Source: a virus. From it: 32,694 bases of DNA. The stretch is taken from positions 1-32,694 of the IMG/VR virus record IMGVR_UViG_3300031983_000058. The stretch is one strand, 5' to 3'. Every line of letters begins with the position of its first letter. The first letter of the stretch is position 1. Position numbers and translations under genes: made by a program. Under the pieces are notes generated by a model. It was not told the DNA's origin and made no database searches. It was given only the letters and a program-made list of their open reading frames with translations. Shown here in pieces: positions 11,629 through 32,694 of the stretch.

Positions 11629-11727
11629 AGAGCTCATAGCTCACAGCTCATAGCTCACAGCTCATAGCTGATAGTCTGAAGGATTGTATCCTTTTTACTA
11701 TGAGCTATCAGCTATCAGCTATCAGCT
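11629..11727. repeat. AGCTCATAGCTCAC phrase repeat forming a long hairpin
   Basis: The left side repeats AGCTCATAGCTCAC/AGCTGATAG, and the right side, after a short centre (AAGGAT/ATCCTT), has the complementary CTATGAGCTATCAGCTATCAG. The whole spacer can fold back on itself into a long imperfect stem. The same phrases recur at 12222-12311. AGCT-based phrases cannot be coding here because they lie between a stop and a start and carry frame-breaking lengths. Confidence 0.65.
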
Positions 11728-11748
11728 AAAAAATACGGAGTATTTTTT
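11728..11748 (+). promoter_or_regulatory. ribosome site GGAG inside a small hairpin
   Basis: AAAAAATAC, loop GGA, GTATTTTTT: a perfect nine-base dyad with the Shine-Dalgarno GGAG (11737-11740) at its tip. ATG 11749 follows directly. It could present or limit ribosome access for the tail chaperone. Confidence 0.45.
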
Positions 11749-12084: not shown

Positions 12085-12221
12085 AAAGCGACCCTGTCCT
12101 TTATAACGAATACCGTCTTGCAGCGGCATTGCACAAAACACGAGCTGAAATCATGCAAATATCGGTTGAAGAGTTTAACGGTTGGATCGCTTTTTTTGAA
12201 ATAGAGCGCCGCTCTAATTAG
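11749..12221 (+). CDS. tail chaperone frameshift product, GpGT-like
   Basis: If ribosomes slip back one base in the A run 12073-12081, reading goes on from ATA 12081 to TAG 12219-12221 and adds about 46 residues (ESDPVLYNEYRLAALHKTR, then SVEEFNGWIAFFEIERRSN). The added part reads like the T extension of many phages: a Leu/Ala/Arg helix, an EFNGWIAFF-type helix and a basic end. In the -1 frame a TAA at 12072 closes reading just before the run, so the shift must occur within it. The total is about 157 residues. The two-protein ratio would be set by slippage. The +1 frame is closed almost at once. Confidence 0.75.
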
Positions 12222-12311
12222 CTGATAGCTCACAGGAAATAGCTCATAGCTCACAGGAAATAGCTCACAGCAAAAAGGATGAAAAATCCTTCAGACTATG
12301 AGCTATCAGCT
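12222..12311. repeat. second AGCTCATAGCTCAC phrase repeat
   Basis: Phrases GCTGATAGCTCACAGGAAAT, AGCTCATAGCTCACAGGAAAT and AGCTCACAGC recur, then a small hairpin AAGGAT-GAAAA-ATCCTT and the complementary ACTATGAGCTATCAGCT. It shares its phrases with 11629-11727 but has a different order and count. Confidence 0.65.
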
Positions 12312-12331: not shown

Positions 12332-13555
12332 ATGGCCAAAGATGTAAAATTTGATGTTCGAGCACAGAATAAAACAAAAACGACATTTAATTCCGTTAAG
12401 TCAGATTTAAAATCCGTTACAAAATCCCTGGGCGGTCTCAAAACGATGGCCATAGGCCTTACTGCCGGCGTTGCTGGTATTTACGCCCTGGCCAAAGGTA
12501 TAGAAACCGTAACATCCGCAGCTATGGGACAACGTTATGCCGAATCCAAACTTAATGCCGTATTAAAGGCAACCGGACATGCCGCCGGCTACACCATGGA
12601 AGAGCTTAAGGGTATGGCAGCCGGTCTGCAAAAAGTAACGACTTTCGGAGACGAAACAGTCATGTCGGGCATGGCAATCCTTGCTACTTTTAAAAATGTG
12701 CGTGGTGAAGCCTTTGAACGCACTACAAAAGCCGCCCTTGATATGTCAACCATAATGGGCACCGATTTAAAATCGTCAATGCTGATGCTTGGCAAAGCCT
12801 TAAATGATCCTGTTGCAAACTTGAGTGCTCTTTCCAGATCCGGCGTACAATTTAATGAACAGCAAAAAGAAATGATAAAGGAGCTTGTGCTGTCCGGCGA
12901 CCTGATGACTGCACAGGGTATCATTTTAGAAGAGCTTGAATCTCAATTCGGAGGCGCAGCAGAGGCTGCGGGCGGTCCGTTCAAAAAGGCACTGGGACAG
13001 CTAAAGAATGTCTGGTCCGATCTTTTAGAAGAAATCGGCTTTGCGATCATAGATAACGAAGCCTTTGTCGCACTTCTCGATGAAATGAAAGATATTATTT
13101 CAGACTTAATTCCTTATATAGGCGATCTTGTCGATGATTTTATTGACTGGATCGGGCCGGTCGATCAGCTTCGTGCTAAACTCGATATGTTTTTACGAAC
13201 CGTACGCATAATGATCAAACCGCTGCAACTGCTCTGGGATCTGATGAAAAAAGTCGGTGCGGGTATAGGAACCGGCGCTGCCATGGCAGTTACCGCAGGT
13301 GAAAAAATCCTTGGTCTTCAAACCGGCACAGGTCCAGCCGGCCTTCCCTCCGATGGTCTTTTTTACGGCCACAGGGGTGAAATCGTCCTAAATCCGGCGC
13401 AGTCAGATGCAGCACGCAGTGGCGGAGGCAATAGAGGCAATACTTATCATTTCCACCTCGAAACGCTAGTTACTGATCCGACAACCCTCCGTAATGCGGC
13501 GCAAATTTTCAAAAGGGAAATGGATGCTTTAAATTGTCGCTGGGGAGAAACGTAA
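12332..13555 (+). CDS. tail length tape measure protein, GpH-like (short)
   Basis: 407 residues. The N terminus (FDVRAQNKTKTTFNSVKSDL) is the coiled-coil opening of tape measure proteins, followed by a Gly/Ala-rich hydrophobic segment (38-68) and the prophage tail-length domain (VSAMAILATFKNVRGEAFE-like, LGKALNDPVANLSALSRSGVQF). The C terminus holds an HRGEIVLNP motif. Lambda GpH has 853 residues, so this one predicts a short tail if the usual proportion between length and tail holds. No internal frameshift was found, and the whole reading is in one frame. Hydrophobic regions at 38-68 and about 290-320 may help DNA pass the inner membrane. Confidence 0.8.
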   Translation: MAKDVKFDVRAQNKTKTTFNSVKSDLKSVTKSLGGLKTMAIGLTAGVAGIYALAKGIETVTSAAMGQRYAESKLNAVLKATGHAAGYTMEELKGMAAGLQKVTTFGDETVMSGMAILATFKNVRGEAFERTTKAALDMSTIMGTDLKSSMLMLGKALNDPVANLSALSRSGVQFNEQQKEMIKELVLSGDLMTAQGIILEELESQFGGAAEAAGGPFKKALGQLKNVWSDLLEEIGFAIIDNEAFVALLDEMKDIISDLIPYIGDLVDDFIDWIGPVDQLRAKLDMFLRTVRIMIKPLQLLWDLMKKVGAGIGTGAAMAVTAGEKILGLQTGTGPAGLPSDGLFYGHRGEIVLNPAQSDAARSGGGNRGNTYHFHLETLVTDPTTLRNAAQIFKREMDALNCRWGET

Positions 13556-13662: not shown

Positions 13663-14406
13663 ATGGCCTGGACGGTAATATTTTACCCATATAATATTTT
13701 AGAATCCGGCACAGTCACCGTTACCGGTGACCCTGACGACGGTTTCCCGGAAAGCAGGCTGTATGATCGAGCGATTTCACTTTTTTGGAAAGACACGGGC
13801 ACGGCGGTATGGACCTTCGTGGTTGATCAGGGCGCCACAGGAAACCTTGCTATAGATTTTCTGGCGATTCACCGTCATAATTTTTCGGGTAGTGATATGT
13901 GGTGGCAGTACAGTAATGACAATTTTGTTGCGGATATCCACAACGTCGTGAACAATTGGTCTCAGGTGGATAACGCACAGATTATCAAAACTCTAAGCAG
14001 CCCCGACACACATCGTTACTTGAGGATATATCTGGGCACCATAACAAACCCAAAATGTGGCGAAATTTTTATGTCAAAGGGTTATTCGTTTAACGCCCTG
14101 CGCGAGGGGAATCCTACCGGACGCGACGTTGATAACGTCAAGTGGCAAAGAACAGTCGGCAGCATCGAACGATCAACCAAGTTCGGCGAAAAACGCAAAG
14201 CCCGCACATATTCTTTTTGGCTGTCAGCGTCAGAATATGCCGATTTTCTCACTGTTAAAAGCTATCTGAACGATTATGCAAATCCTTTCTATTTCAAGGA
14301 TCATAAAGATAATTATTTTATGGCTAAATTTGAAGGAACGCCGGAAGAGAACTTTGACCATAATATCTATACACGAGTAACGATTAACATTATAGAAATG
14401 CTTTGA
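13663..14406 (+). CDS. distal-tail-like minor tail protein
   Basis: 247 residues, beta-rich. The first half has a galactose-binding-like layout (VDQGATGNLAIDFLAIHRHNF, SDMWWQYSND, then SSPDTHRYLRIYLG). The second half ends in WLSASEYADFLTVKSYL and strand pairs typical of proteins that link the tube to the tail hub. Genes of this type directly before a hub gene occur in many siphophages. It may form the ring below the tube and possibly bind a sugar. The stop overlaps the TTG start of the hub by four bases. The role is inferred from position and fold pattern. Confidence 0.5.
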   Translation: MAWTVIFYPYNILESGTVTVTGDPDDGFPESRLYDRAISLFWKDTGTAVWTFVVDQGATGNLAIDFLAIHRHNFSGSDMWWQYSNDNFVADIHNVVNNWSQVDNAQIIKTLSSPDTHRYLRIYLGTITNPKCGEIFMSKGYSFNALREGNPTGRDVDNVKWQRTVGSIERSTKFGEKRKARTYSFWLSASEYADFLTVKSYLNDYANPFYFKDHKDNYFMAKFEGTPEENFDHNIYTRVTINIIEML

Positions 14407-17400
14407 AAACCTTATCCACCTTTACAGAGACCGCCATCGACAATCCGCATGTCGATATCATTCGGCTGGTTGAAATCACCATCGGAGAAACAACCCTATA
14501 TCTTTGCGATCGGGTTTTCGGTGATGACGGCCTTTGTGTCTTTAACAACCGGCTATACGAACCGCTGATAATCTCCTGGGGCACGATCAAAACAGGTCGG
14601 ATAGACCCGTTAACATATGCCGTCGAACCGGGGGATGCGAGCTTTACGGTTGACAACTCACAGCCTGTGGGCGGAGCGGACTGCTTTACGGCGCTTTTTA
14701 TAAATAATGATCCTCAATATTGTTCTGTAATCATTTCTGAAATACACGAAGGAGCATCCGCTGCAGAGGATAAAGAAGATATTTTCGGCGGTCACATCGA
14801 GGATCTCCCCGAAATGACCGTTGACCGGGTAACCGTGGCCTGTGGCGGCTTTGAACTGGATATTGTAAATAAGTTCGTCCATACCATCGTTGATGATACC
14901 ACATATCCCGGCGCCGATCCTGACGATATCGGCAAGATGGTACCGCAGATTTACGGCCCGGTTAAACGAGTGCCGTGTATTGCAGCAGATGCCGGCGGAA
15001 AAACAACCATTGCAGAGGATATGACCGATACATCGCCGGGCAATGGCGAAACCCTGGATATTTCGGATGCCTCCGCTTTTCCGAGTTCCGGCGCTTTCAC
15101 GATCCAGATCGACAGCGAGCAGGTGCGCATTGCATCACGATCCGGCAACACTCTGACCCTGGCCGCATCCGGCGCCCGTGGTTATAATTCGACAGACGCC
15201 GTCTATCACGACCTCGGCGCACCTATGGCGGAGATCCAGACTAAATATGTTTATCTCCTGGCAGATCATCCTGTTAAAGAAATCACCACGGTTTATGTTG
15301 ACAATATCAGGCAGATATCGGGTTTCACGGCGTATTCGGGAGCAGACTATAATAAGATAGCCGATCCCTCCATCTTGCCTACAGGCCCTGGTTATGGTGT
15401 GGCCTTCAACCATGACGGTTCATTGATGGCTGTAGCACATTGGTATTCTCCCTACATAACAATCTACAACACCAGCGACTGGAGCAAAGTTGCAAACCCT
15501 TCCGTATTACCCGCTGGCGCTGGTTATGGTGTGGCCTTCAACCATGACGGTTCATTGATGGCTGTAGCACATTGGGATTCTCCCTACATAACAATCTACA
15601 ATACCAGCGACTGGAGCAAAGTTGCAAACCCTTCCGTATTACCCGCTGGCTCTGGTTATGGTTTGGCCTTCAACCATGATGGCTCGTTGCTGGCTGTAGC
15701 ACATTGGGATTCTCCCTACATAACAATCTACAACACCAGCGATTGGAGCAAAATAGCAAACCCTTCCGTATTACCAGCTGGTGCTGGTCATGATGTGGCC
15801 TTCAACCATGATGGCTCGTTGATGGCAGTGGCGCATTTCTCTTCTCCCTACATAACCATTTACAACACCAGCGACTGGAGCAAGGTTGCAAACCCTTCCG
15901 TATTACCCCCTAACATCGGTTATGGCGTGGCCTTCAACCATGATGGCTCGCTGATGGCAGTGGCGCATTCCGTTTCTCCCTACATAACCATCTATAATAC
16001 CAGCGACTGGAGCAAGATAGCCGATCCCACGACGCTGCCCTCTGACATCGGCAGAGGCGTAGCCTTCAATCACGACGGGTCGTTAATGGCTGTGGTACAT
16101 AATGGCTCTCCTTACGTAACCATTTACAACACCAGCGACTGGAGCAAGATTGACGATCCCTCCACCTTGCCTACGAGCAGCGGTAATGCTGTGGCCTTCA
16201 ACCATGACGGTTCATTGATAGCCGTGTTGCATGATGATTCTCCTTTCATAACTATTTATGAATTATCGGAATATTTTGGCAAGGCGGTCATCATTTTTGA
16301 CGCCCTGCCCAACTATAAAAAACAGGTCAACATCGAGGCCGATTCGTCGGACCTGGGCGTCGATTCATCCGGCAGGGCCACCGGTGACAGTGGCCATTCG
16401 CACTCATCCGCACAACAGACCATTGAGTGGTATTTTGATGATGCCACGGTCATTACAGGATCAGTTCAAAACCCGAATAATATCTGCGACCAAAACCTCA
16501 CAAATTATGCTCGGTTTTGCAATCTGAATGCTAAATGTGAGGTTGAGAAGATCAGCAGCGAGGAATATTCCGGCCCCCCGCAACAGTACCGAATATGTGT
16601 GAGGGTTGGAACGGTAGATGTCGGGGTTCAAATCAGGGCGAATTTTTACGGCCTGAGCGGAACGTATGGGTGTACCGTAACGTCCGCACATAATAACTCT
16701 ACACGCTACAGCATGTGGTACACTGTATCATCCGCCGTGGATACATGGGTAGAGCTCAAAACTAAAAAAATGACCGTAGAACAAATAGCCGGAAATAATT
16801 ATGGCAACATTAATGAAGTCTGGCTGGAGGTCAAATGGACACCCCAGGGGACCATTTCCGGGTATGCCAACGTTTCTCTTTCAGGCATCAACCTGGTCTC
16901 CGGGATAGTCACGCTGGCCGGTAATTCCACCGCCGAAACCGTTATCGGCAAAATGATATCTGCTGATGCGCAAGGTTATAAAGACGATAGCGCCGGGACC
17001 ATTACCGGCACGCCGTACGCCCTGATCGAACGTCCGGATCATCAGGCAAAGCACATAATAATAGACCGGTGCGGTCTTTCCGCAGACGAAATCCACGCAG
17101 CATCATACTCTGCTGCAGGAATATTTTTTAATGCAAACAGTTTCACCCTTGGCTTTCCCATATTACAAAGGCCCAACGTGCGTCTGCTGCTGAACCGTAT
17201 TGCAATCCAAGCCAAAGCCCTGGAATTTTGGGAGGCTGGAAAACATCATATTGTACCCATAGCAAGCTTCTTTATAGAAGACGAATTGTCGGTCCTGCTT
17301 TTACACATGGACGGCACAGACGGATCGACCGTCTTTATCGATGACGGCGCGACCGGGCACACTGTCATAGCTCACGGCAACGCCCAAATCGACACGGCAT

Positions 17401-19391
17401 ATAAAAAGTTCGGCACCGGTTCAGGACTGTTCGACGGATCGGGAGATTATCTGAGCATACCGGATCATGCCAACTTTAATATGGCTTCAGGACGGGTCGC
17501 AATCGATGTATGGAAGCGATTTCAAAGCGCCGATAAAACGGCTGTGCTTTATAGCCAGTTTGTCGATAATACCCATTTTGTGAAATTCGTAGTTCATAAC
17601 GATATTATCAGTTTTCATATCAAAAACGGAAGCGATGTTGTTAATTTTTCAAGAACCTATACAGCCGGTTTCACGGCGGGGGTGCAATATCACATCGCCC
17701 TGATAAGGGGCTGGAACAACAGCGACAATACCTGGGCGATCACGGTCACCGGCCAGATCGTGGGAGATGTCTATTCAAATTCCGCAGCCTGGCCGGACTT
17801 AGCAGCGGAAATTTTAATCGGAAAGACCGGCGACTGGAGCAAGATAACCAACCCTTCCGTATTTCCCCCCGGTACTGGAAATGGGATAGCCTTCAACCAT
17901 GATGGTTCATTGGTGGCTGTGGCACATTGGTATTCTCCCTACATAACAATCTACAACACCAGCGACTGGAGCAAGGTAAGCAATCCTTCCTTATTACCCT
18001 CCGGTACTGGTTATGGTGTGGCCTTCAATCATGATGGCTCGCTGATGGCAGTGGCGCATAATACTTCTCCCTACATAACCATTTACAACACCAGCGATTG
18101 GAGCAAGGTTGCAAACCCCGTCGTATGGCCTGTTGGTATTAGTATGGGGGTAGCCTTCAACCATGATGGCTCGCTGATGGTAGTGGCGCATTCCGGTTCT
18201 CCCCGCATAACCATCTATAATACCAGCGACTGGAGCAAGATAGCTGATCCCTCCACCTTACCTGCGGGCCCTGGTTGTGATGTGGCCTTCAATCATGATG
18301 GCTCACTGATGGCTGTGGCGCATGATACTTCTCCTTATATAACCATTTACAACACCAGCGACTGGAGCAAGGTAACCGATCCCACGACGCTGCCCTCTAA
18401 CATCGGCTATGGCGTAGCCTTCAATCACGACGGTTCGTTGATGGCAGTGGCGCATGATGCTTCTCCTTATATAACAATTTATAATACCAGTAACTGGAGC
18501 AAAGTAACCGACCCTTCCACATTACCCGCTGGTGCTGTTCGTGGTGTAGCCTTCAACCATGATGGTTCGCTGATGGCTGTGGCAAGTCTCTATTCTCCCT
18601 ACATAATAATCTACAACACCAGCGACTGGAGCAAGGTGGCCGATCCCTCCACCTTGCCTACGAGCTCCGGTCGCGGCGTAGCCTTCAATCATGATGGTTC
18701 GTTGATGGCCGTGGCGCATAATTCTTCTCCCAAAGTAACCACCTATGTCCCTGTTCAATATTCAAAAGGACATAAAGATGAATATCGTGTTTCAAAACCA
18801 ACTGCCCGCTGGACGGCGGATTTTACACCGTCCAATGAACCATACCCAAACACAGATCCGGGCGGCGGCATGTTCTGGAGTTTGTCAGTGTATAAGACAA
18901 TCGATGATAATCGTGTCGATCTCGGTCAAATCTGGCTGAAATATACGGATCGCATTAATATCAAAAATAAACTTACAGCCAGTTATTCCCGGCAGTGGTC
19001 CGGCCATATCGATGAAGTTGAAGCCGACCGGGCAATCGTAATTACAAGCGATGCCGGCTCGATCACAAAATTCGGTGTACTCCAGGGCGATCCGTTATCT
19101 TTTCCATATGTCAACGGCGAAACCCAGGCCCAGGCCGTACTTAATTGGAAACTTGCCGACTCCAAAGGCTCGCGCTTGATCGTCGAGCAGGCCGGCGGAT
19201 ATTACCTGACCGACATCGAGCGCGGGGACATTATCTGTTTTGATCATATGGAGTCCATTGGTGATGATAACCAATATCTGGAAAAAGCCCTGCTGGGACT
19301 CGTAACGATGGGCACAACCCTGTTTAGAGTGATCGATAAAAACTACCGCCCTGATGCGACGATCCAGATCGAAGCGGTAATCATAATATAA
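14403..19391 (+). CDS. tail hub / tip protein with LamG domain and two seven-bladed propellers
   Basis: 1662 residues starting at TTG in a TTGA overlap. Approximate plan: hub N terminus 1-317 (beta-rich, baseplate-like); propeller one, 318-625, seven repeats of 44 residues; hub middle 626-960; first part of a LamG/concanavalin-like domain 961-1146 (LLLHMDGTDGSTVFID, GTGSGLFDGSGDYLSIP); propeller two, 1147-1454, again seven repeats of 44; end of the LamG domain 1455-1490 (DEYRVSKPTARWTADFTP); hub C terminus 1490-1662. Repeats share VAFNHDGSLMAVAH, SPYITIYNTSDWS and LP. It occupies the place of lambda J. As the tail tip, it should contact the host surface; carbohydrate binding by LamG and the propellers is inference. 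Confidence 0.75.
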   Translation: MKTLSTFTETAIDNPHVDIIRLVEITIGETTLYLCDRVFGDDGLCVFNNRLYEPLIISWGTIKTGRIDPLTYAVEPGDASFTVDNSQPVGGADCFTALFINNDPQYCSVIISEIHEGASAAEDKEDIFGGHIEDLPEMTVDRVTVACGGFELDIVNKFVHTIVDDTTYPGADPDDIGKMVPQIYGPVKRVPCIAADAGGKTTIAEDMTDTSPGNGETLDISDASAFPSSGAFTIQIDSEQVRIASRSGNTLTLAASGARGYNSTDAVYHDLGAPMAEIQTKYVYLLADHPVKEITTVYVDNIRQISGFTAYSGADYNKIADPSILPTGPGYGVAFNHDGSLMAVAHWYSPYITIYNTSDWSKVANPSVLPAGAGYGVAFNHDGSLMAVAHWDSPYITIYNTSDWSKVANPSVLPAGSGYGLAFNHDGSLLAVAHWDSPYITIYNTSDWSKIANPSVLPAGAGHDVAFNHDGSLMAVAHFSSPYITIYNTSDWSKVANPSVLPPNIGYGVAFNHDGSLMAVAHSVSPYITIYNTSDWSKIADPTTLPSDIGRGVAFNHDGSLMAVVHNGSPYVTIYNTSDWSKIDDPSTLPTSSGNAVAFNHDGSLIAVLHDDSPFITIYELSEYFGKAVIIFDALPNYKKQVNIEADSSDLGVDSSGRATGDSGHSHSSAQQTIEWYFDDATVITGSVQNPNNICDQNLTNYARFCNLNAKCEVEKISSEEYSGPPQQYRICVRVGTVDVGVQIRANFYGLSGTYGCTVTSAHNNSTRYSMWYTVSSAVDTWVELKTKKMTVEQIAGNNYGNINEVWLEVKWTPQGTISGYANVSLSGINLVSGIVTLAGNSTAETVIGKMISADAQGYKDDSAGTITGTPYALIERPDHQAKHIIIDRCGLSADEIHAASYSAAGIFFNANSFTLGFPILQRPNVRLLLNRIAIQAKALEFWEAGKHHIVPIASFFIEDELSVLLLHMDGTDGSTVFIDDGATGHTVIAHGNAQIDTAYKKFGTGSGLFDGSGDYLSIPDHANFNMASGRVAIDVWKRFQSADKTAVLYSQFVDNTHFVKFVVHNDIISFHIKNGSDVVNFSRTYTAGFTAGVQYHIALIRGWNNSDNTWAITVTGQIVGDVYSNSAAWPDLAAEILIGKTGDWSKITNPSVFPPGTGNGIAFNHDGSLVAVAHWYSPYITIYNTSDWSKVSNPSLLPSGTGYGVAFNHDGSLMAVAHNTSPYITIYNTSDWSKVANPVVWPVGISMGVAFNHDGSLMVVAHSGSPRITIYNTSDWSKIADPSTLPAGPGCDVAFNHDGSLMAVAHDTSPYITIYNTSDWSKVTDPTTLPSNIGYGVAFNHDGSLMAVAHDASPYITIYNTSNWSKVTDPSTLPAGAVRGVAFNHDGSLMAVASLYSPYIIIYNTSDWSKVADPSTLPTSSGRGVAFNHDGSLMAVAHNSSPKVTTYVPVQYSKGHKDEYRVSKPTARWTADFTPSNEPYPNTDPGGGMFWSLSVYKTIDDNRVDLGQIWLKYTDRINIKNKLTASYSRQWSGHIDEVEADRAIVITSDAGSITKFGVLQGDPLSFPYVNGETQAQAVLNWKLADSKGSRLIVEQAGGYYLTDIERGDIICFDHMESIGDDNQYLEKALLGLVTMGTTLFRVIDKNYRPDATIQIEAVIII
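15354..16277 (+). repeat. seven 132-bp tandem repeats encoding propeller one
   Basis: Seven in-frame units of 132 bases (44 residues), 924 bases in all. Most of each unit is near identical, such as ACCAGCGACTGGAGCAA and AACCATGAYGG. The last unit degrades after TIY into ELSEYF, where the host domain resumes. Confidence 0.9.
17841..18764 (+). repeat. seven 132-bp tandem repeats encoding propeller two
   Basis: Again exactly seven in-frame units of 132 bases. The first unit of this array closely matches the first unit of the other array, and the last unit matches the last, which points to duplication of the whole array and not of single blades. Confidence 0.9.
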
Positions 19392-20553: not shown

Positions 20554-21267
20554 TTACCACAGCCTACGGACTCTTGATTTTTCTCTATCGATTTTCTTGC
20601 CCACCAGTCGTTCCCATAACTTGATGCCAGCTAACTTTTCAACAAGTGTCGTTGGGACTAAAAACGTGTCCAGTGATTGATCAGATTCTTCGTTTGGCAA
20701 TACAAATGACCACATATGCAAAGCCCCTTTGTTATTCTCAGTCAAAACAGATTTAAAATATGCTTGCGGCACCGGTATCGTTACCTCATTAGGGTCATCA
20801 GCACCTATCGTTTCGACTGGCTGATCGAAATAAAAGATAGGACCACAAATAACATACGTTTCCAAAATTTTAGACTTAGCATCTAAATTTCTGACTGCAG
20901 CTTCCAATTCTCTCCATATTTCTCTATTGAATTGAGGTCTCTGAGGAGACATATTGGACAAAAGGAATGTTTCGCTATTTTGTAATTCTGTTTCTCTCTG
21001 ATTAGCACTTGCAACAAGATGCCCACGGTCATAACCGGACCCAGTATAATCAACAAGGTCGGCACGAAACATCTCAGGAATTCGATAGTCTGGACGAAAG
21101 TTATCTAAACGATCTAAGCCAGGATTATCAGGATCTACAATTTCTAAAGCCCACTTTGCTTGACGAAAATAATATGAATACCCCAGTACATAATACCTAT
21201 TAAACATTATTTGGTCTGCTGCCGGCATTCCGTATCTAGTTTCGCGTCTTAAATTAGGTAAGTTCAT
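20554..21267 (-). CDS. DNA/RNA non-specific endonuclease (beta-beta-alpha metal type)
   Basis: 237 residues. The active-site segment is clear: DRGHL (Asp80, His83), then SNMSPQ (Asn105) and FNREIWRELE with Asn114 as the expected metal ligand. The family includes NucA and endonuclease G, which cut DNA and RNA without strong sequence preference. There is no signal peptide, so the protein is expected in the cytoplasm, unlike secreted relatives. The gene lies downstream of the SIR2-STAND gene on the same strand, 207 bases apart. Cytoplasmic nucleases are common effectors in anti-phage loci, which is inference here. Base composition is AT-rich compared with the phage structural genes. Confidence 0.85.
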   Translation of the reverse strand: MNLPNLRRETRYGMPAADQIMFNRYYVLGYSYYFRQAKWALEIVDPDNPGLDRLDNFRPDYRIPEMFRADLVDYTGSGYDRGHLVASANQRETELQNSETFLLSNMSPQRPQFNREIWRELEAAVRNLDAKSKILETYVICGPIFYFDQPVETIGADDPNEVTIPVPQAYFKSVLTENNKGALHMWSFVLPNEESDQSLDTFLVPTTLVEKLAGIKLWERLVGKKIDREKSRVRRLW

Positions 21268-21474: not shown

Positions 21475-24400
21475 TTAAGTGAAAACTTTTTTCACATATA
21501 TCCCTAAACCGTTAAGACCGATTTCAACTTTCATATTTTGTCCGGATTGGGGATAATTACCTGATGAAATAGTCCTCAAGTCCATATGAGCGTTAAGGTT
21601 TCGCGGGAATCCTTCAATTTCAACAAATCCCTTTCCTAAACGATATGGTTTATAAGTACCATTAATTATCATAGGCTTTTGCTCATGATCTAATAATTCT
21701 ATTTTCAAATTGAGCTTTTCAGAAAAAGAAATTGGAGAATCACTTATTTTTCTAATTTCTCTTGGTGCTTCTCCAAATTCTTGGTGTTCAACTAATCCCT
21801 TTATATACCTTAATCTTCTTTTATAATCGATTGGCACTAATTTTAAATATTCTTTATAGCTATTCTTTATGTCACTCCAACTACCATTTAATGCTATTAA
21901 ACACTTAATTTTTAACCTATGAAGTCCTGAACTTTTAGGCGCATATGGAACCCCATTGTTAATGTATTTAAGAGCGTCAGGATAATTCTTCTTTTTAATT
22001 AACAAGTTTGCCAACAAGAGTATCGCCCGCACATTACCAGCATCAAGCAGGATACTTCTCTTAAGTTTTTCTTCAGCTTCAGGTATTTTATCAAGAGCAA
22101 GATTGAGTCTTGCAAGCAATACGATTAGTTCGCTGCTCATCGGATATAGCCTCAATGCATTATCAAGATCCTCTTGGGCCTCTTCAATAACTCGCAATCT
22201 TTGTTCTTCAGGCAAATGGTCTTTTTTAAGTGCCCAGTCAAGCAATTTATCAATTAGACTATGATAATGTATTTCTTTATCAGTATCTTTGGAAATACGC
22301 TTACGAATTAATGTTGCACCTTTTTTTAGTGCATATTCTGCTCTATCAGGTTTGGGCTCTGAAATCGCCTCTCTTAACCATATGGTCCCTTTTGTATTTA
22401 AAAAATGTGGATGACTATCGCTTAAATGTATCGCATCATCTGCTAATTTTCTAGCAATCTCAAAGTTTTTTTCTTGAGACTCAAAAATAGCAGCATGTTG
22501 TTTTATATAAGGATCTGAAGGAAACTCTGTCATTAAATATGTATATAATGATCTAATGCGACCAGATTCTTTAAGGGTTTTTGATAAATAGTCTTCTTGG
22601 TAAACTCTTTTTAGTAGCTCATATTCGTTATATGAATGCGGATTAATATTTTTTGCTATTTCTATAAGCAATTCGACTATTCTTGCAGGATCAACAACCG
22701 ATTCGAGCAATGATTCTGCTATAACACGATGTTGAGTAGAAAACAGAAGCTCTCCACTTATGTGGTCAATCTCCTCCAGAACAATCTCATCAAGTTGTCC
22801 ACTCATTTCTGAATGGTAGTCAATAAGTGCCAAATTTACTAATTTTGTTGCCAATGTAGCCGGCATTTGTATAGCTAAACTATGAGAAATTGCTACTGAA
22901 AGATAAATATTTCTTGCAGGCACGCTTTTTATCCTAAAATATTCATCAGCGATAATTTCATGAAATTTTGTTTCTTTTCCGGTTATAACCGTCCGCAATC
23001 CAGCAATTATATGCTTCTCGCCCACGTCTATCAATTGGTTGGATATTTCTTTTGCAGATATGCTTTCACCTCTTTCTTCTAATAATCCTGAACGTATTAA
23101 AGTATTTGCCAAACTTAATGATTCTTTTTCCGATAGTCTTTGTAACGTGAATCTTGAAGGAATAGGTATCGAACCTGTTCCTCGCGCAGAATTCCATTCA
23201 CTTTGCCTAGAGGCGATTAAAATATAGACATGTAATTTATTATTTACTGCATCTAAATATAGCCTTTTAATGGAAGACATACATTTTGGTCCATCATCAA
23301 ACATTATCACGACTGTCTTTTTTATTAATTTACAAAATTCGGATATTGGCGTGGGATCTAAATTTACGTTGTTACGCACCCATAGAATGATATAATCATC
23401 ATTTTTAGAAATATCGTATGCGGTCTGCATCAATAAAGTGCTTTTTCCGTATCCAGCCGCACCCAACAATAAACTGATCCGTGGTTTCCTTGATGGTAAC
23501 CAATTATTAATATCATCAATTATATCATTTTCAATTTCTCTCTTTATAGGTAAATTGTTCTGAATGTCATCCCAGTAAGGAAAAGATCCAATCAAATAGG
23601 TGCTCTGTTCAGGTAATCGCACGGGAGATTCTAACTCAGAGATAATTTGACAGTATTTTTTTATTGAATCAGCAAGGTTAGGAGAAATTGATATCGATAA
23701 TTTTTGTTTTGCCCAATTAGTTATAGAGGCACTACGCTCAATAATTTTATCCTCAATTGATATAGGAGTTCTATCTAAATTTGCTTTGAGCCAAGGAAGA
23801 AATGTCTTTGAATCTGAATCAATTACAGTTACTCCTTCAATTTCCATAGATTTGATAAAGCTGGGCGATGCACTAGGCTTTATTAAAAAAGATGGTTTAA
23901 GTATAGAAAGTGACCCCCCATATTTTTTTACGCTTTCCCATAAATCATGGAAATCTGAATCTTCAAACCCAAATCCGATAAATAAAAGGCTATGCTCGCA
24001 TAACTTAACGGCTAAGTTTGCGAATAATCTTAAGTTTTTTTCGCGGGCTTGCGTGTAATCGCGATGTGAAAAAATTATGCTACTCTCAGGTTTTATCAAA
24101 CAACCGTGTAATTTTAGATAGGGCACTTCTGTCTCAGTCTCAGATGTGGATGGATCAGTCGGTAGCACAATTGGAACTAATTTCTGTACTTTTTTCTCAG
24201 CATTGGAATATGCAGTCTCGATACCATAGTCTATATTAACAGTGTATATACTATTCCATTGTATGTATGGAATTTGCATTAAAGTGTTAGTGGTACGCAC
24301 TGGATGAAGTCGTTTAATAAGATATTTACGTAACTTTTCACTCCCTTCAATATTTTGTATTTTTGTTGAAACAGCTCTCAACGATTCATTATTGAATGTT

Positions 24401-24576
24401 TCATTAGGAAAAAAATGTTTTGACAAGTCCTCAGCTAGATTATTTCCAAGTGGCGCGGGTTTTGGAGGATCACCCATTTTGCAGTCCGCGTTTACTCCCG
24501 CACCAAGAAAAAGTACCATATCTCCTTTTGAAGTTGCGGCTAATAATTCCGAAGAATTTGGAAAAGTATGCAACAT
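21475..24576 (-). CDS. SIR2-STAND NTPase-TPR defence protein (Avs5-like architecture)
   Basis: 1033 residues. SIR2 domain 1-265: FLGAGVN (23-29), YTVNIDYGIE with Asn114 and Asp116, KLHG with His157, and FIGFGFEDSDF near 199-209; the NAD-binding and catalytic residues look intact. Central P-loop NTPase about 320-650: Walker A GAAGYGKST (372-380) and Walker B VVIMFDD (422-428). C-terminal about 680-960: helical repeats with TPR spacing (ALRLYPMSSELIVLLARLNLAL, then EAEEKLKRSILLDAGNVRAI). In known systems, STAND proteins sense a phage protein through the C terminus and the SIR2 domain then depletes NAD+. It is AT-rich, on the opposite strand from late genes, and sits in the usual cargo position of a prophage. 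Confidence 0.88.
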   Translation of the reverse strand: MLHTFPNSSELLAATSKGDMVLFLGAGVNADCKMGDPPKPAPLGNNLAEDLSKHFFPNETFNNESLRAVSTKIQNIEGSEKLRKYLIKRLHPVRTTNTLMQIPYIQWNSIYTVNIDYGIETAYSNAEKKVQKLVPIVLPTDPSTSETETEVPYLKLHGCLIKPESSIIFSHRDYTQAREKNLRLFANLAVKLCEHSLLFIGFGFEDSDFHDLWESVKKYGGSLSILKPSFLIKPSASPSFIKSMEIEGVTVIDSDSKTFLPWLKANLDRTPISIEDKIIERSASITNWAKQKLSISISPNLADSIKKYCQIISELESPVRLPEQSTYLIGSFPYWDDIQNNLPIKREIENDIIDDINNWLPSRKPRISLLLGAAGYGKSTLLMQTAYDISKNDDYIILWVRNNVNLDPTPISEFCKLIKKTVVIMFDDGPKCMSSIKRLYLDAVNNKLHVYILIASRQSEWNSARGTGSIPIPSRFTLQRLSEKESLSLANTLIRSGLLEERGESISAKEISNQLIDVGEKHIIAGLRTVITGKETKFHEIIADEYFRIKSVPARNIYLSVAISHSLAIQMPATLATKLVNLALIDYHSEMSGQLDEIVLEEIDHISGELLFSTQHRVIAESLLESVVDPARIVELLIEIAKNINPHSYNEYELLKRVYQEDYLSKTLKESGRIRSLYTYLMTEFPSDPYIKQHAAIFESQEKNFEIARKLADDAIHLSDSHPHFLNTKGTIWLREAISEPKPDRAEYALKKGATLIRKRISKDTDKEIHYHSLIDKLLDWALKKDHLPEEQRLRVIEEAQEDLDNALRLYPMSSELIVLLARLNLALDKIPEAEEKLKRSILLDAGNVRAILLLANLLIKKKNYPDALKYINNGVPYAPKSSGLHRLKIKCLIALNGSWSDIKNSYKEYLKLVPIDYKRRLRYIKGLVEHQEFGEAPREIRKISDSPISFSEKLNLKIELLDHEQKPMIINGTYKPYRLGKGFVEIEGFPRNLNAHMDLRTISSGNYPQSGQNMKVEIGLNGLGIYVKKVFT

Positions 24577-28066: not shown

Positions 28067-28924
28067 ATGGCTAAATACAGACCGATCTTTACAAGGATAT
28101 GGAAAGACCCGGATTTTGAGGAAATGGATGCCGAATCCAAGTTGATATTTATATATTTATGCACAAATGAATTGACCACCGACAGCGGCATTTATTCCAT
28201 ATCATTTAAAACGATTTCTAACGAAACCGGCATCCCTTTAGAAACGGTTAGGGAACGGTTAACCAACGGTTCTATTAAGAATCTGCTATATGATGAACAG
28301 TTCAAATACGTCTTTGTCGTCAAATTTAAAAAATATAATGCCGGCGGAAAGCCGAAACTTGTCGAAAGGGGGATAGTAAACGACTTTAAATCATCTAACT
28401 GCACGTATTTGTGGAGTATTTTTATAAAAGAATATCCAAAATATAAAGATGCAATTCTAACCGTTGGTAAACCGTTAGAGAACGGTTCTGGACAAATCCG
28501 CACTAATCCTAAACCTAATCCTAAACCTAGAAAGGCTTTATTTACTAGCGTAAATAAAGCCCCCGGATCCGGGGGTCATTTTTCTGATCAGTTGGAAAAT
28601 TACGCCGAACCGATAATCAAGAACTGTAAAAAAATCCTGAAACTGCCACAGAAAAACGGCAAGCGCTTCAACCCGTTTCAATGGGTACAGTCTCAAACTA
28701 AAAACAATATACATCCCGGAGCCATACTCGAGACAGTGGAAGCCCTGGCCAATCCAAAACACTGGCAGAATATCCGTGACGGACCTTGGGCATATGCCAC
28801 GGCGATTATCAAAACTAAAAACGGGAACTGGAATGAAAGATCCCATATCGCCGAGGCTGAAAAATTCAAAGAAACATGGATCAGCCCGGAAGTTAAGGAA
28901 TTAATCAAAAACATTGGATCATGA
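28067..28924 (+). CDS. replication initiator, winged-helix (lambda O-like)
   Basis: 285 residues. Residues 1-110 are a winged-helix module (YRPIFTRIWKDPDFEEMDAE, FIYLCTNE, SGIYSISFKTISNETGI, then ETVRERL) like phage replication initiators of the O / DnaD-like group. Residues about 150-175 are a flexible linker (TNPKPNPKPRKALF), and the C-terminal part is helical (GAILETVEALANPKHWQNI) as in DnaB-loading initiators. The gene body contains repeats that look like the origin itself (see separate entries). It overlaps the next gene by ATGA. No helicase or loader gene is seen, so the host DnaB pathway would be used. The exact initiator family is uncertain. Confidence 0.65.
   Translation: MAKYRPIFTRIWKDPDFEEMDAESKLIFIYLCTNELTTDSGIYSISFKTISNETGIPLETVRERLTNGSIKNLLYDEQFKYVFVVKFKKYNAGGKPKLVERGIVNDFKSSNCTYLWSIFIKEYPKYKDAILTVGKPLENGSGQIRTNPKPNPKPRKALFTSVNKAPGSGGHFSDQLENYAEPIIKNCKKILKLPQKNGKRFNPFQWVQSQTKNNIHPGAILETVEALANPKHWQNIRDGPWAYATAIIKTKNGNWNERSHIAEAEKFKETWISPEVKELIKNIGS
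28243..28271 (+). repeat. iteron triplet 1 (AACGGTT, 11-bp spacing)
   Basis: AACGGTT begins at 28243, 28254 and 28265, exactly one helical turn apart (11 bases), inside the replication gene. A matching triplet lies at 28459-28487. Direct reading shows this; a chance triple at constant phase is unlikely. Confidence 0.8.
28459..28487 (+). repeat. iteron triplet 2 (AACCGTT, AACCGTT, AACGGTT, 11-bp spacing)
   Basis: AACCGTT (reverse complement of AACGGTT) at 28459 and 28470, then AACGGTT at 28481, again at an 11-base period. The change of orientation makes an inverted arrangement. Confidence 0.8.
28503..28529 (+). repeat. tandem 12-bp repeat CTAATCCTAAAC
   Basis: Two exact copies (28503-28514, 28515-28526) and the beginning of a third. 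It encodes the NPKPNPKP linker, so part of the repetition may be protein-level, but its position just after iterons and before two palindromes fits an origin. Confidence 0.6.
28534..28575 (+). other. candidate replication origin structure: two adjoining palindromes
   Basis: GGCTTTATTTAC-TAGC-GTAAATAAAGCC (28534-28561), a perfect 12-base stem, immediately abuts the 16-base palindrome CCCCCGGATCCGGGGG (28560-28575). One is AT-rich (melting), the other very GC-rich. With the two iteron triplets upstream this forms a plausible intragenic origin. Confidence 0.6.
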
Positions 28925-29892
28925 ATCATCTTAAGCGAATAGAACAGATAAAATCAGCCGGCATTGCCGACAATACGATCAGATCGTATGAAAGCGATAT
29001 GAAATATTTCTGGGGCTGGGTTAAAATTACCAGAGGCGGAGATATTAAATATCCGGTTTCTCCGGGACTGATTGAAGCTTTTATTTTAGATCACATAGAG
29101 GGCCTTGATCAACGCACAGACAGGTTAATGGTTGAATGCGGATATAAAGCTAAACTTGGCAGGTTACATGCGGTTATCACCGTCCAGCGTCGTCTGAAAG
29201 CCCTTGGATGGATTCACAGAATTAATAATTATGAGAATCCTGCCAGGTCTCAAAAAATAAAAGAAATACTTAGTGCCGCCAAAAGGGTTGAATCCAAATC
29301 GGGCAGGGTTCCCAAAAAATCCAGGGCGATCACTAAAGATGTCCTGGATAAAATAATTAAAACAATCGACACGCGTACGCTTGTTGGGAAGCGTAACAGG
29401 GCGATCCTTGAATTCGGATTTTATACCGGTGGCCGGCGTCGAAACGAAATAGCATCGGCACAGTACAGGTTTTTAACAAAAAACCGGGGAGGCTATATTT
29501 ATCTGCTCCACAGGTCAAAGACGGACCAGTCCGGCAAGGGCCGTCAAAAAATCCTGCGGAGCAGATACTCCCACTCTCTCACAGCCTGGATTGCAGCCGC
29601 CAACATAACAGACGGCTATCTTTTCCGGAGCATCAGGGGAAATAAAGCCGGTGAAAAGCCGATTAACCCACAAATAGTAAATAAAATTATAAAGTCACAC
29701 ATTGAAATGATCGGTGAAAACCCCAAATTTTACAGCGCCCACGGCCTCCGTCGTGGTTTCATCACAACCTGCGGACGCCTTGGACTGTCAATATATGACG
29801 TAATGGAATTGACCGATCACAAAGACATCAGAACCCTGCTTGTCTATTACGAGGAAGGCCGGATCAGCAGAAACCCGGCCACAAAGATTTAA
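28921..29892 (+). CDS. second tyrosine recombinase
   Basis: 323 residues. Catalytic residues are in place: Arg173 in TGGRRRNE, Lys200 in HRSKTD, His274 and Arg277 in SAHGLRRGF, His300 in LTDHKD and Tyr309/310 in LVYYEEG. The N-terminal SAM-like domain is at about 1-120. The start overlaps the initiator stop by ATGA, so the gene is co-translated with replication. A role in resolving dimers or multimers produced during replication is a reasonable inference; an alternative is a second integration function. It differs clearly from the right-end integrase and is not adjacent to the att core. Confidence 0.8.
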   Translation: MNHLKRIEQIKSAGIADNTIRSYESDMKYFWGWVKITRGGDIKYPVSPGLIEAFILDHIEGLDQRTDRLMVECGYKAKLGRLHAVITVQRRLKALGWIHRINNYENPARSQKIKEILSAAKRVESKSGRVPKKSRAITKDVLDKIIKTIDTRTLVGKRNRAILEFGFYTGGRRRNEIASAQYRFLTKNRGGYIYLLHRSKTDQSGKGRQKILRSRYSHSLTAWIAAANITDGYLFRSIRGNKAGEKPINPQIVNKIIKSHIEMIGENPKFYSAHGLRRGFITTCGRLGLSIYDVMELTDHKDIRTLLVYYEEGRISRNPATKI

Positions 29893-31695: not shown

Positions 31696-32694
31696 ATGCA
31701 GCCCATGAACCTCTGGCAACGTCCCAAACATCAAACTTGGTATGCCAGCTTTGAACGCTGCAAAAGGTTTCCTGCCGGCAAGCGCATTTCATTAAAAACC
31801 AAAGACAAAAAAGAAGCCCTGGCCATATTTAAGGCCCTGAAAAAAAAGTGGCTCGAAAACCGGCTTATCGAACTGGACGGATCCCGGCGGATATCCCTAA
31901 AAGACTTTATCAAAGAATATACAGATCACCCGGACCGCAAAAACCTGTCTGAAAACACGCTCCGGATGGACCGCCTTGCATTAAACAGTTTAGGTGATGT
32001 TATAGGCCCCAGCGCTGCAATCAAAACAATCAACCATTCTAAAATCACCCTGTTTAAAAAGATATGCAGCGCCCGGGAACTTTCAAAAAGCACCACGAAT
32101 ACATATTTGCGGCATATCAGGGCAGCCCTAAACACAGCCCGCGAATGGGGATATATAGAAAAAGTTCCTAAGATAAAGCCGCTTAAAGTCGGCAAACACC
32201 TTCCGGCCACGTTATCCAGAAAAGAAATAAATAAAATACTCGAATACTCAAAAAAAGAAGATCACGAAATGTGGCGGATTATTACATTCGCCCTCTGGAC
32301 CGGCTGCCGGCGACAGGAAATATTAAATCTTAAATGGCAGGACGTATCAGAAAAAACATGCCGGATCATCGGCAAGGGCGACAAAGAAAGAGTTGTTTAT
32401 CTTCTGCAGGATGCATTAAAAGCGATGGGCCCCATGCGGCATATCGGCCCCGTATTTAGAAAAATGCACAAAGACACGGTTTCTCACAAGTTCAAGGACC
32501 TGGCCACAGCCTGTAATATAAAAGCCCACTTTCACAACCTACGCCACACCGCCGCCACACACATGCTGAAAAACGAAATACCCCTGGAAGTCATCCAGAA
32601 GATCCTCGGCCACTCCGATATCCGAACAACTCAGATTTACGCTCAGGTCTATGACGATGTAATACAAAAAGAAATGAGCAAATTGAAATACTAA
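31696..32694 (+). CDS. tyrosine integrase
   Basis: 332 residues, a full-length phage integrase. The arm-binding N terminus (about 1-60, with GKRISLKTKDKKEAL) is followed by a core-binding SAM-like domain (about 68-160) and a catalytic domain with Arg205 (WTGCRRQEIL), Lys227/230 (GKGDKERVV), His280 and Arg283 (HNLRHTAATHML), His306 (LGHSDIRTT) and Tyr315 (QIYAQVYDD). It would recombine the tRNA-Thr core. The stop codon is the last three bases of the window, so attachment DNA beyond it is not visible here. Confidence 0.92.
   Translation: MQPMNLWQRPKHQTWYASFERCKRFPAGKRISLKTKDKKEALAIFKALKKKWLENRLIELDGSRRISLKDFIKEYTDHPDRKNLSENTLRMDRLALNSLGDVIGPSAAIKTINHSKITLFKKICSARELSKSTTNTYLRHIRAALNTAREWGYIEKVPKIKPLKVGKHLPATLSRKEINKILEYSKKEDHEMWRIITFALWTGCRRQEILNLKWQDVSEKTCRIIGKGDKERVVYLLQDALKAMGPMRHIGPVFRKMHKDTVSHKFKDLATACNIKAHFHNLRHTAATHMLKNEIPLEVIQKILGHSDIRTTQIYAQVYDDVIQKEMSKLKY

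Follow-up and report, generated by a model that had tools for sequence, protein, structure and literature searches.

We found that the tail-tip hub protein of a temperate tailed phage carries two seven-bladed arrays of WD40 type, which are probably binding modules inserted into loops, with a diversifying face and with blades kept alike within the genome by concerted evolution. The hub would thereby present two seven-bladed WD40 propellers as accessory binding modules, propeller A occupying a hub-core loop and propeller B a loop of a lectin-like LamG domain, which would itself be inserted in the hub. The window, the whole stretch of DNA that was analyzed, comprises the 32,694 bases of the whole virus record IMGVR_UViG_3300031983_000058, whose terminase, portal, head and connector genes together with two integrase genes indicate a temperate tailed phage. 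The integrases are distinct tyrosine-type enzymes (28921-29892 and 31696-32694, both on the plus strand). The hub protein of 1662 residues is encoded at 14403-19391 (plus strand) by an open reading frame that starts with TTG and overlaps the preceding gene, and its relatives occur in 24 viral loci, with identities of up to 67% over the N-terminus. Upstream lies the tape-measure gene (12332-13555, plus strand; Pfam TMP_2, E 1.2e-7; PHROG tail tape measure, E 2.2e-43), and the gene separating it from the hub (13663-14406, plus strand), the product of which had zero matches in Pfam and PHROG searches, is distal-tail-like by its position. A small gene 5' of the tape measure is flanked by two clusters of AGCTCAT-type direct repeats of 7, 14 and 21 nt (11631-11728 and 12219-12279). 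In Foldseek searches, the hub core model matched tail-tip or baseplate chains of JBD30, T5, DT57C, RcGTA, lambda, T1 and R4C, with low TM across the whole model, and these fold matches and the upstream tape measure together identify the protein as a tail-tip hub, in agreement with an earlier, sequence-only reading of this DNA that had placed the arrays in a phage tail hub. Such a hub would be present in several copies per virion. Pfam searches of the 1662-residue protein returned no NACHT or NLR domain, and it thus lacks the architecture of an HNWD-like receptor. Elsewhere in the record, a minus-strand gene (21475-24576) encodes a 1033-residue protein with SIR2-like, nSTAND5 NTPase and TPR regions that looks like a phage-borne anti-phage defence protein, and it adjoins a gene for a NucA-type DNA/RNA non-specific endonuclease (20554-21267, minus strand).

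The motif NHDGSL occurs in the hub protein in 14 exact copies that form two series of seven, at residues 336-600 and 1165-1429, with a constant spacing of 44 residues in each, and TRF independently found 132-bp periods at 15384-16219 and 17826-18731. The sequence-only reading had described two arrays of exactly seven 44-residue units at 15354-18764, and this description holds, with the framework sequences also right and the coordinates correct to within about 20 bases. Propeller A (15348-16259, plus strand; residues 316-619) interrupts the hub core in a loop flanked by GAD and ELSEYFGKAV, and propeller B (17835-18746, plus strand; residues 1145-1448) interrupts the LamG domain, with IGKTGD before it and VPVQYSK after it. 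Each module spans 304 residues, in which seven WD40-type blade cores of 40 residues are joined by six four-residue linkers of the NTSD type. Arrays A and B share 78% protein identity, and blade-to-blade identities of 24-41 of 44 residues, mostly above 60%, place them among recently amplified propellers as delimited by a median above 60%. The arrays are not a product of chance, since Pfam beta-propeller models (Beta-prop_THOC3, ANAPC4_WD40) match the hub open reading frame with E 4.5e-36 and the model of array A closes. This AlphaFold2 model, for which 15 family members were aligned with array A first, has a mean pLDDT of 92.9 and a pTM of 0.91 and consists of an N-terminal strand (2-4) followed by seven repeats of three strands, so that array A is predicted to form the closed ring that the earlier reading had anticipated, a velcro-closed seven-bladed propeller. 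Among solved structures, Foldseek placed this model closest to WRAP-T designs, along with a bacterial WD40 domain and 2ymu, a highly repetitive propeller, and WDR5 came lower; these matches, together with those of the sequence, identify the fold as a WD40-type seven-bladed beta-propeller. In a joint model of the hub with propeller A (953 residues; alignment of 20 rows) the hub core is confident and the propeller has a pLDDT of about 48, and the mutual orientation of hub and propeller is therefore not readable from it.

Comparison with hub relatives delimits both insertions. At the first site, all 23 alignable relatives have a short loop, for example YTGQTGDELTGYEGKAV, where the window has YSGAD-(304 residues)-ELSEYFGKAV, and hub residues 313 and 626 are adjacent in the relatives. 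A propeller at this site is found in 0 of the 23, which fits the earlier view that propellers are uncommon in such hubs. At the second site, the positions equivalent to window residues 953 and about 1493-1498 directly adjoin each other in four relatives (L003, L005, L006 and L008), giving about 540 extra residues here; these residues are the LamG domain plus array B, a block missing from the relatives. The first part of this LamG (concanavalin-like) domain (17295-17834, plus strand) has 47% identity to the LamG domain of another locus, L072, and a match to phrog_24074 at 965-1102, and its last part (GHKDEYRVSKPTARWTADFTPSNEPYP; 18747-18848, plus strand) follows propeller B and matches GHIDEFRISKGVARWTTNFTPPTRAYP of L072. 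The L072 domain is recognized by Pfam as Laminin_G_3 and is uninterrupted, reading IGDLNGSSYVNGHIDEFRISK where the window reads IGKTGD-(304 residues)-VPVQYSKGHKDEYRVSK. The window protein itself gave no Pfam LamG match at 0.001, and its domain is assigned through the match to L072, compared directly between the translated sequences, with the last strand region resuming past the insertion. Because the L072 LamG is uninterrupted at the same point, propeller B is, as judged from these alignments, doubly nested, a propeller within a LamG domain within the hub. Velcro closure offers a structural rationale, as the N-terminal d strand would complete the last blade and leave the two ends adjacent; with the ends side by side, the entire module could fit an exposed loop without breaking the carrier domain. 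The insert ends show no target-site duplication, the longest flank match being 4 nt for A and for B, and a transposon-like mobile element was rejected on this basis, though we acknowledge that old insertions could have lost such a duplication. Between the flanks of A and those of B, the common stretch is no more than 6 nt.

The propeller family is a promiscuous virion module. In one locus, L027, a gp11-like protein has a single array and a gp12-like tail tube protein has a pair of them. Matches of these proteins to PHROG tail families 394 and 376 fall into two stretches, the better of which lies downstream of the arrays. The same gp11 junction is present in L071, an independent contig, and internal propellers also occur in L089, which aligns to the gp12-like core, and in the tail-fibre-like L031. 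In the gp12 loop, one L027 propeller and the L072 LamG domain sit at the same position. This loop is an insertion hot spot (L072, L027, L116 and others) that is mostly empty and that holds a domain of 70-75 residues in nine loci. The remaining family members are free-standing or terminal, within a sample biased by the probes that defined it (the NTSDWSK or AF[NS]xDG motifs). Two loci have arrangements of their own: three consecutive genes in L079 (3503-8702) each have a seven-blade array near the end, and L034 (5278-9744) has just three near-identical blades within an apparent beta-sandwich domain, which may be either a real but partial ring or the result of collapse during assembly. With regard to a bacterial source, no relative was confirmed when genome contigs were queried with the protein, a DNA pattern yielded three single motif matches, and the Salicola phage propeller used as a query found nothing further.

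Variation among the blades is concentrated on one face. Amino-acid entropy in the window is highest at blade positions 34, 33, 15, 17 and 13, and the top positions are largely the same in L027 and L028 (entropy rank correlation with the window of 0.68 and 0.61, respectively; weaker in L029 and L030). On the array A model, these positions map to the d-a loop with the first residues of strand a, and to the b-c loop. In the WD40 topology, the d-a and b-c loops lie on a common face. The remaining loops, a-b and c-d (NHDGS, NTSD), are nearly invariant. Over all window pairs, pN/pS is 1.23 at codons 15, 17, 33 and 34 and 0.20 in the framework. Among close pairs, dN at these four codons over framework dS reaches 2.4-2.6 in the window and 3.9-6.0 in L027 and drops to 1.2, which is near neutral, across all window pairs, with the caveats that blade pairs are non-independent and that conversion of the framework could depress dS. 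This makes diversifying (positive) selection likely at codons 15, 17, 33 and 34. The window also has a third-base bias, with 27 of 28 variable codons in which a purine is possible ending in a pyrimidine versus 218 of 361 in the framework (Fisher p 5e-5), a bias that is absent from L027. No reverse transcriptase was found among the open reading frames read or in family searches of the record, which may be incomplete, and a target of a diversity-generating retroelement was rejected given this result and a codon bias limited to the window.

Going by their position and by the hypervariable face, the likeliest role of the propellers is that of a binding module, and we infer that they function in ligand binding and adhesion. 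The framework and the a-b/c-d face would remain constant while residues 13, 15, 17, 33 and 34 on the d-a/b-c face diversify, resulting in up to 14 different blades on a single chassis, with adhesion to variable structures of the host surface or matrix as the likeliest purpose. The first alternative, which we consider unlikely yet deserving of weight, is that the propeller is a tolerated passenger that enlarges or stabilizes exposed loops without a specific ligand, its variable residues being merely unconstrained surface. Such a passenger would be consistent with the lack of a propeller in most relatives, with the unrelated domains accepted at gp12-like insertion sites and with the value of pN/pS near 1 at the variable codons over all window pairs, but it does not account for a close-pair dN at these codons that is 2.4-6-fold framework dS in several phages, nor for the constancy of the opposite face, which is equally exposed. 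That constancy could instead reflect a structural or assembly element, in which the ring would serve as a spacer or trimer clamp, docked by its constant face on the hub, the LamG domain or the tail tube, and insertion into tail-tube proteins, as opposed to classical receptor-binding proteins, speaks for this as well. We judge this second alternative improbable, as a module that works in unrelated host domains is unlikely to depend on a specific docking surface in every one of them, and the variable face is left unexplained. Mis-joining of repeat-rich reads, such that the arrays are not both real, is very improbable even though short tandem repeats assemble poorly and the three blades of L034 may be a collapsed array, given that exact matches between A and B reach at most 53 bp and repeats inside A at most 56 bp, that blades differ at many silent sites, that all four junctions are in frame and that the same type of insertion appears in independent contigs (the gp11-type junction of L071 and L027).

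The binding-module reading also includes a homogenizing process within each genome, which we infer to be concerted evolution. Mean blade nucleotide identity is 0.74 within the window, 0.83 within L027 and 0.61 between the two, and the framework is uniform within each phage and particular to it (NHDGSLMAVAH in the window, SPDGSLLAIAH in L027). Silent sites in the window are widely different (framework pS 0.55), indicating that the amplification is not very recent. Window blades are equally alike within arrays (0.743) and between them (0.745), and in the blade tree the clusters cross the arrays, as the sequence-only reading had expected, though mostly off-index (A6-B5, support 0.98; A5-B3, 0.90; A7-B7, 0.75). 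That reading had also paired blade 1 with blade 1 and blade 7 with blade 7 and taken the whole propeller to have been copied, and here the evidence is weak: same-index identity is 0.765 against 0.745 over all permutations (p = 0.16), so that a one-to-one copy of the entire propeller is not demonstrable, and collinear blade order fares similarly (p = 0.12-0.19). A single copying of the entire propeller is possible, with blades exchanged or re-duplicated afterwards. Exchange or re-duplication of blades within the genome would yield a uniform framework with re-dealt variable residues. Overall, the earlier interpretation is partly supported, and the loop insertion, the nesting of B in LamG, the module in virion proteins of other phages and the one-face variation go beyond it.

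Phages are usually viewed as altering their binding through swaps of fibre tips or through retroelement mutagenesis. We tentatively suggest, as a possibility that falls short of being probable, that these propellers form a genome-internal repertoire in which one cassette multiplies into several virion-protein loops and blade recombination re-deals the hypervariable face, giving many binding specificities without a diversity-generating retroelement. A loop-tolerant repeat ring whose variation is confined to one face would add a third route to changed binding, similar in style to the fungal WD40 immune receptors, and would account for rings in hubs and tail tube proteins that are not usually deemed receptor-binding. 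Such a ring also predicts that the few variable residues per blade decide what the tail tip binds.

Blades of the same or a related family have been catalogued without function (phrog_19311; the 'wD40 repeat protein' of MW202701; Salicola phage CGphi29; BFVD entries), and MW202701 has a mostly free-standing array, unlike the hub insertions. Among the catalogued WD40-like phage proteins that we found, the loop insertion, nesting and selection pattern are not described, and in one open-access literature library we found no description of repetitive propellers in loops of tail hub or tube proteins, which does not prove that there is none. Propellers are known from the phage receptor-binding proteins phi11 Gp45, PRD1 P2 and phiKZ gp131C (PMC4901313). 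These resemble the hub arrays as virion beta-propellers with a proposed host-binding role, and phiKZ gp131C is seven-bladed too, but each is a lone, non-repetitive propeller that belongs to a dedicated receptor-binding or baseplate protein, whereas near-identical blades occupy a hub loop here. Immunoglobulin-like domains, which are spread over phage virion proteins with a mostly unknown role (PMC3185693), are likewise promiscuous accessory beta domains, but of another fold and with no repeat-built variable face. Recently amplified propellers are widespread, viruses included, and are mostly near protein termini (PMC9218822). Among them, WRAP (Nostoc Npun_R6612) is likewise WD40-type and highly repetitive, its 14 blades forming two seven-bladed propellers (PMC9218822, PMC6805158), but it serves as the sensor at the C-terminus of a STAND ATPase and has hardly any silent changes, whereas the arrays reported here are virion loop insertions with strongly diverged silent sites. 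The fungal HET-D/HET-E proteins also have two seven-bladed propellers, in which the framework evolves in concert and diversifying selection acts on a few codons of the interaction face (PMC12222747). They are cellular immune receptors of NLR architecture, with C-terminal arrays of varying blade number, and the likeness of these HNWD proteins to the hub arrays is one of mode of evolution only.
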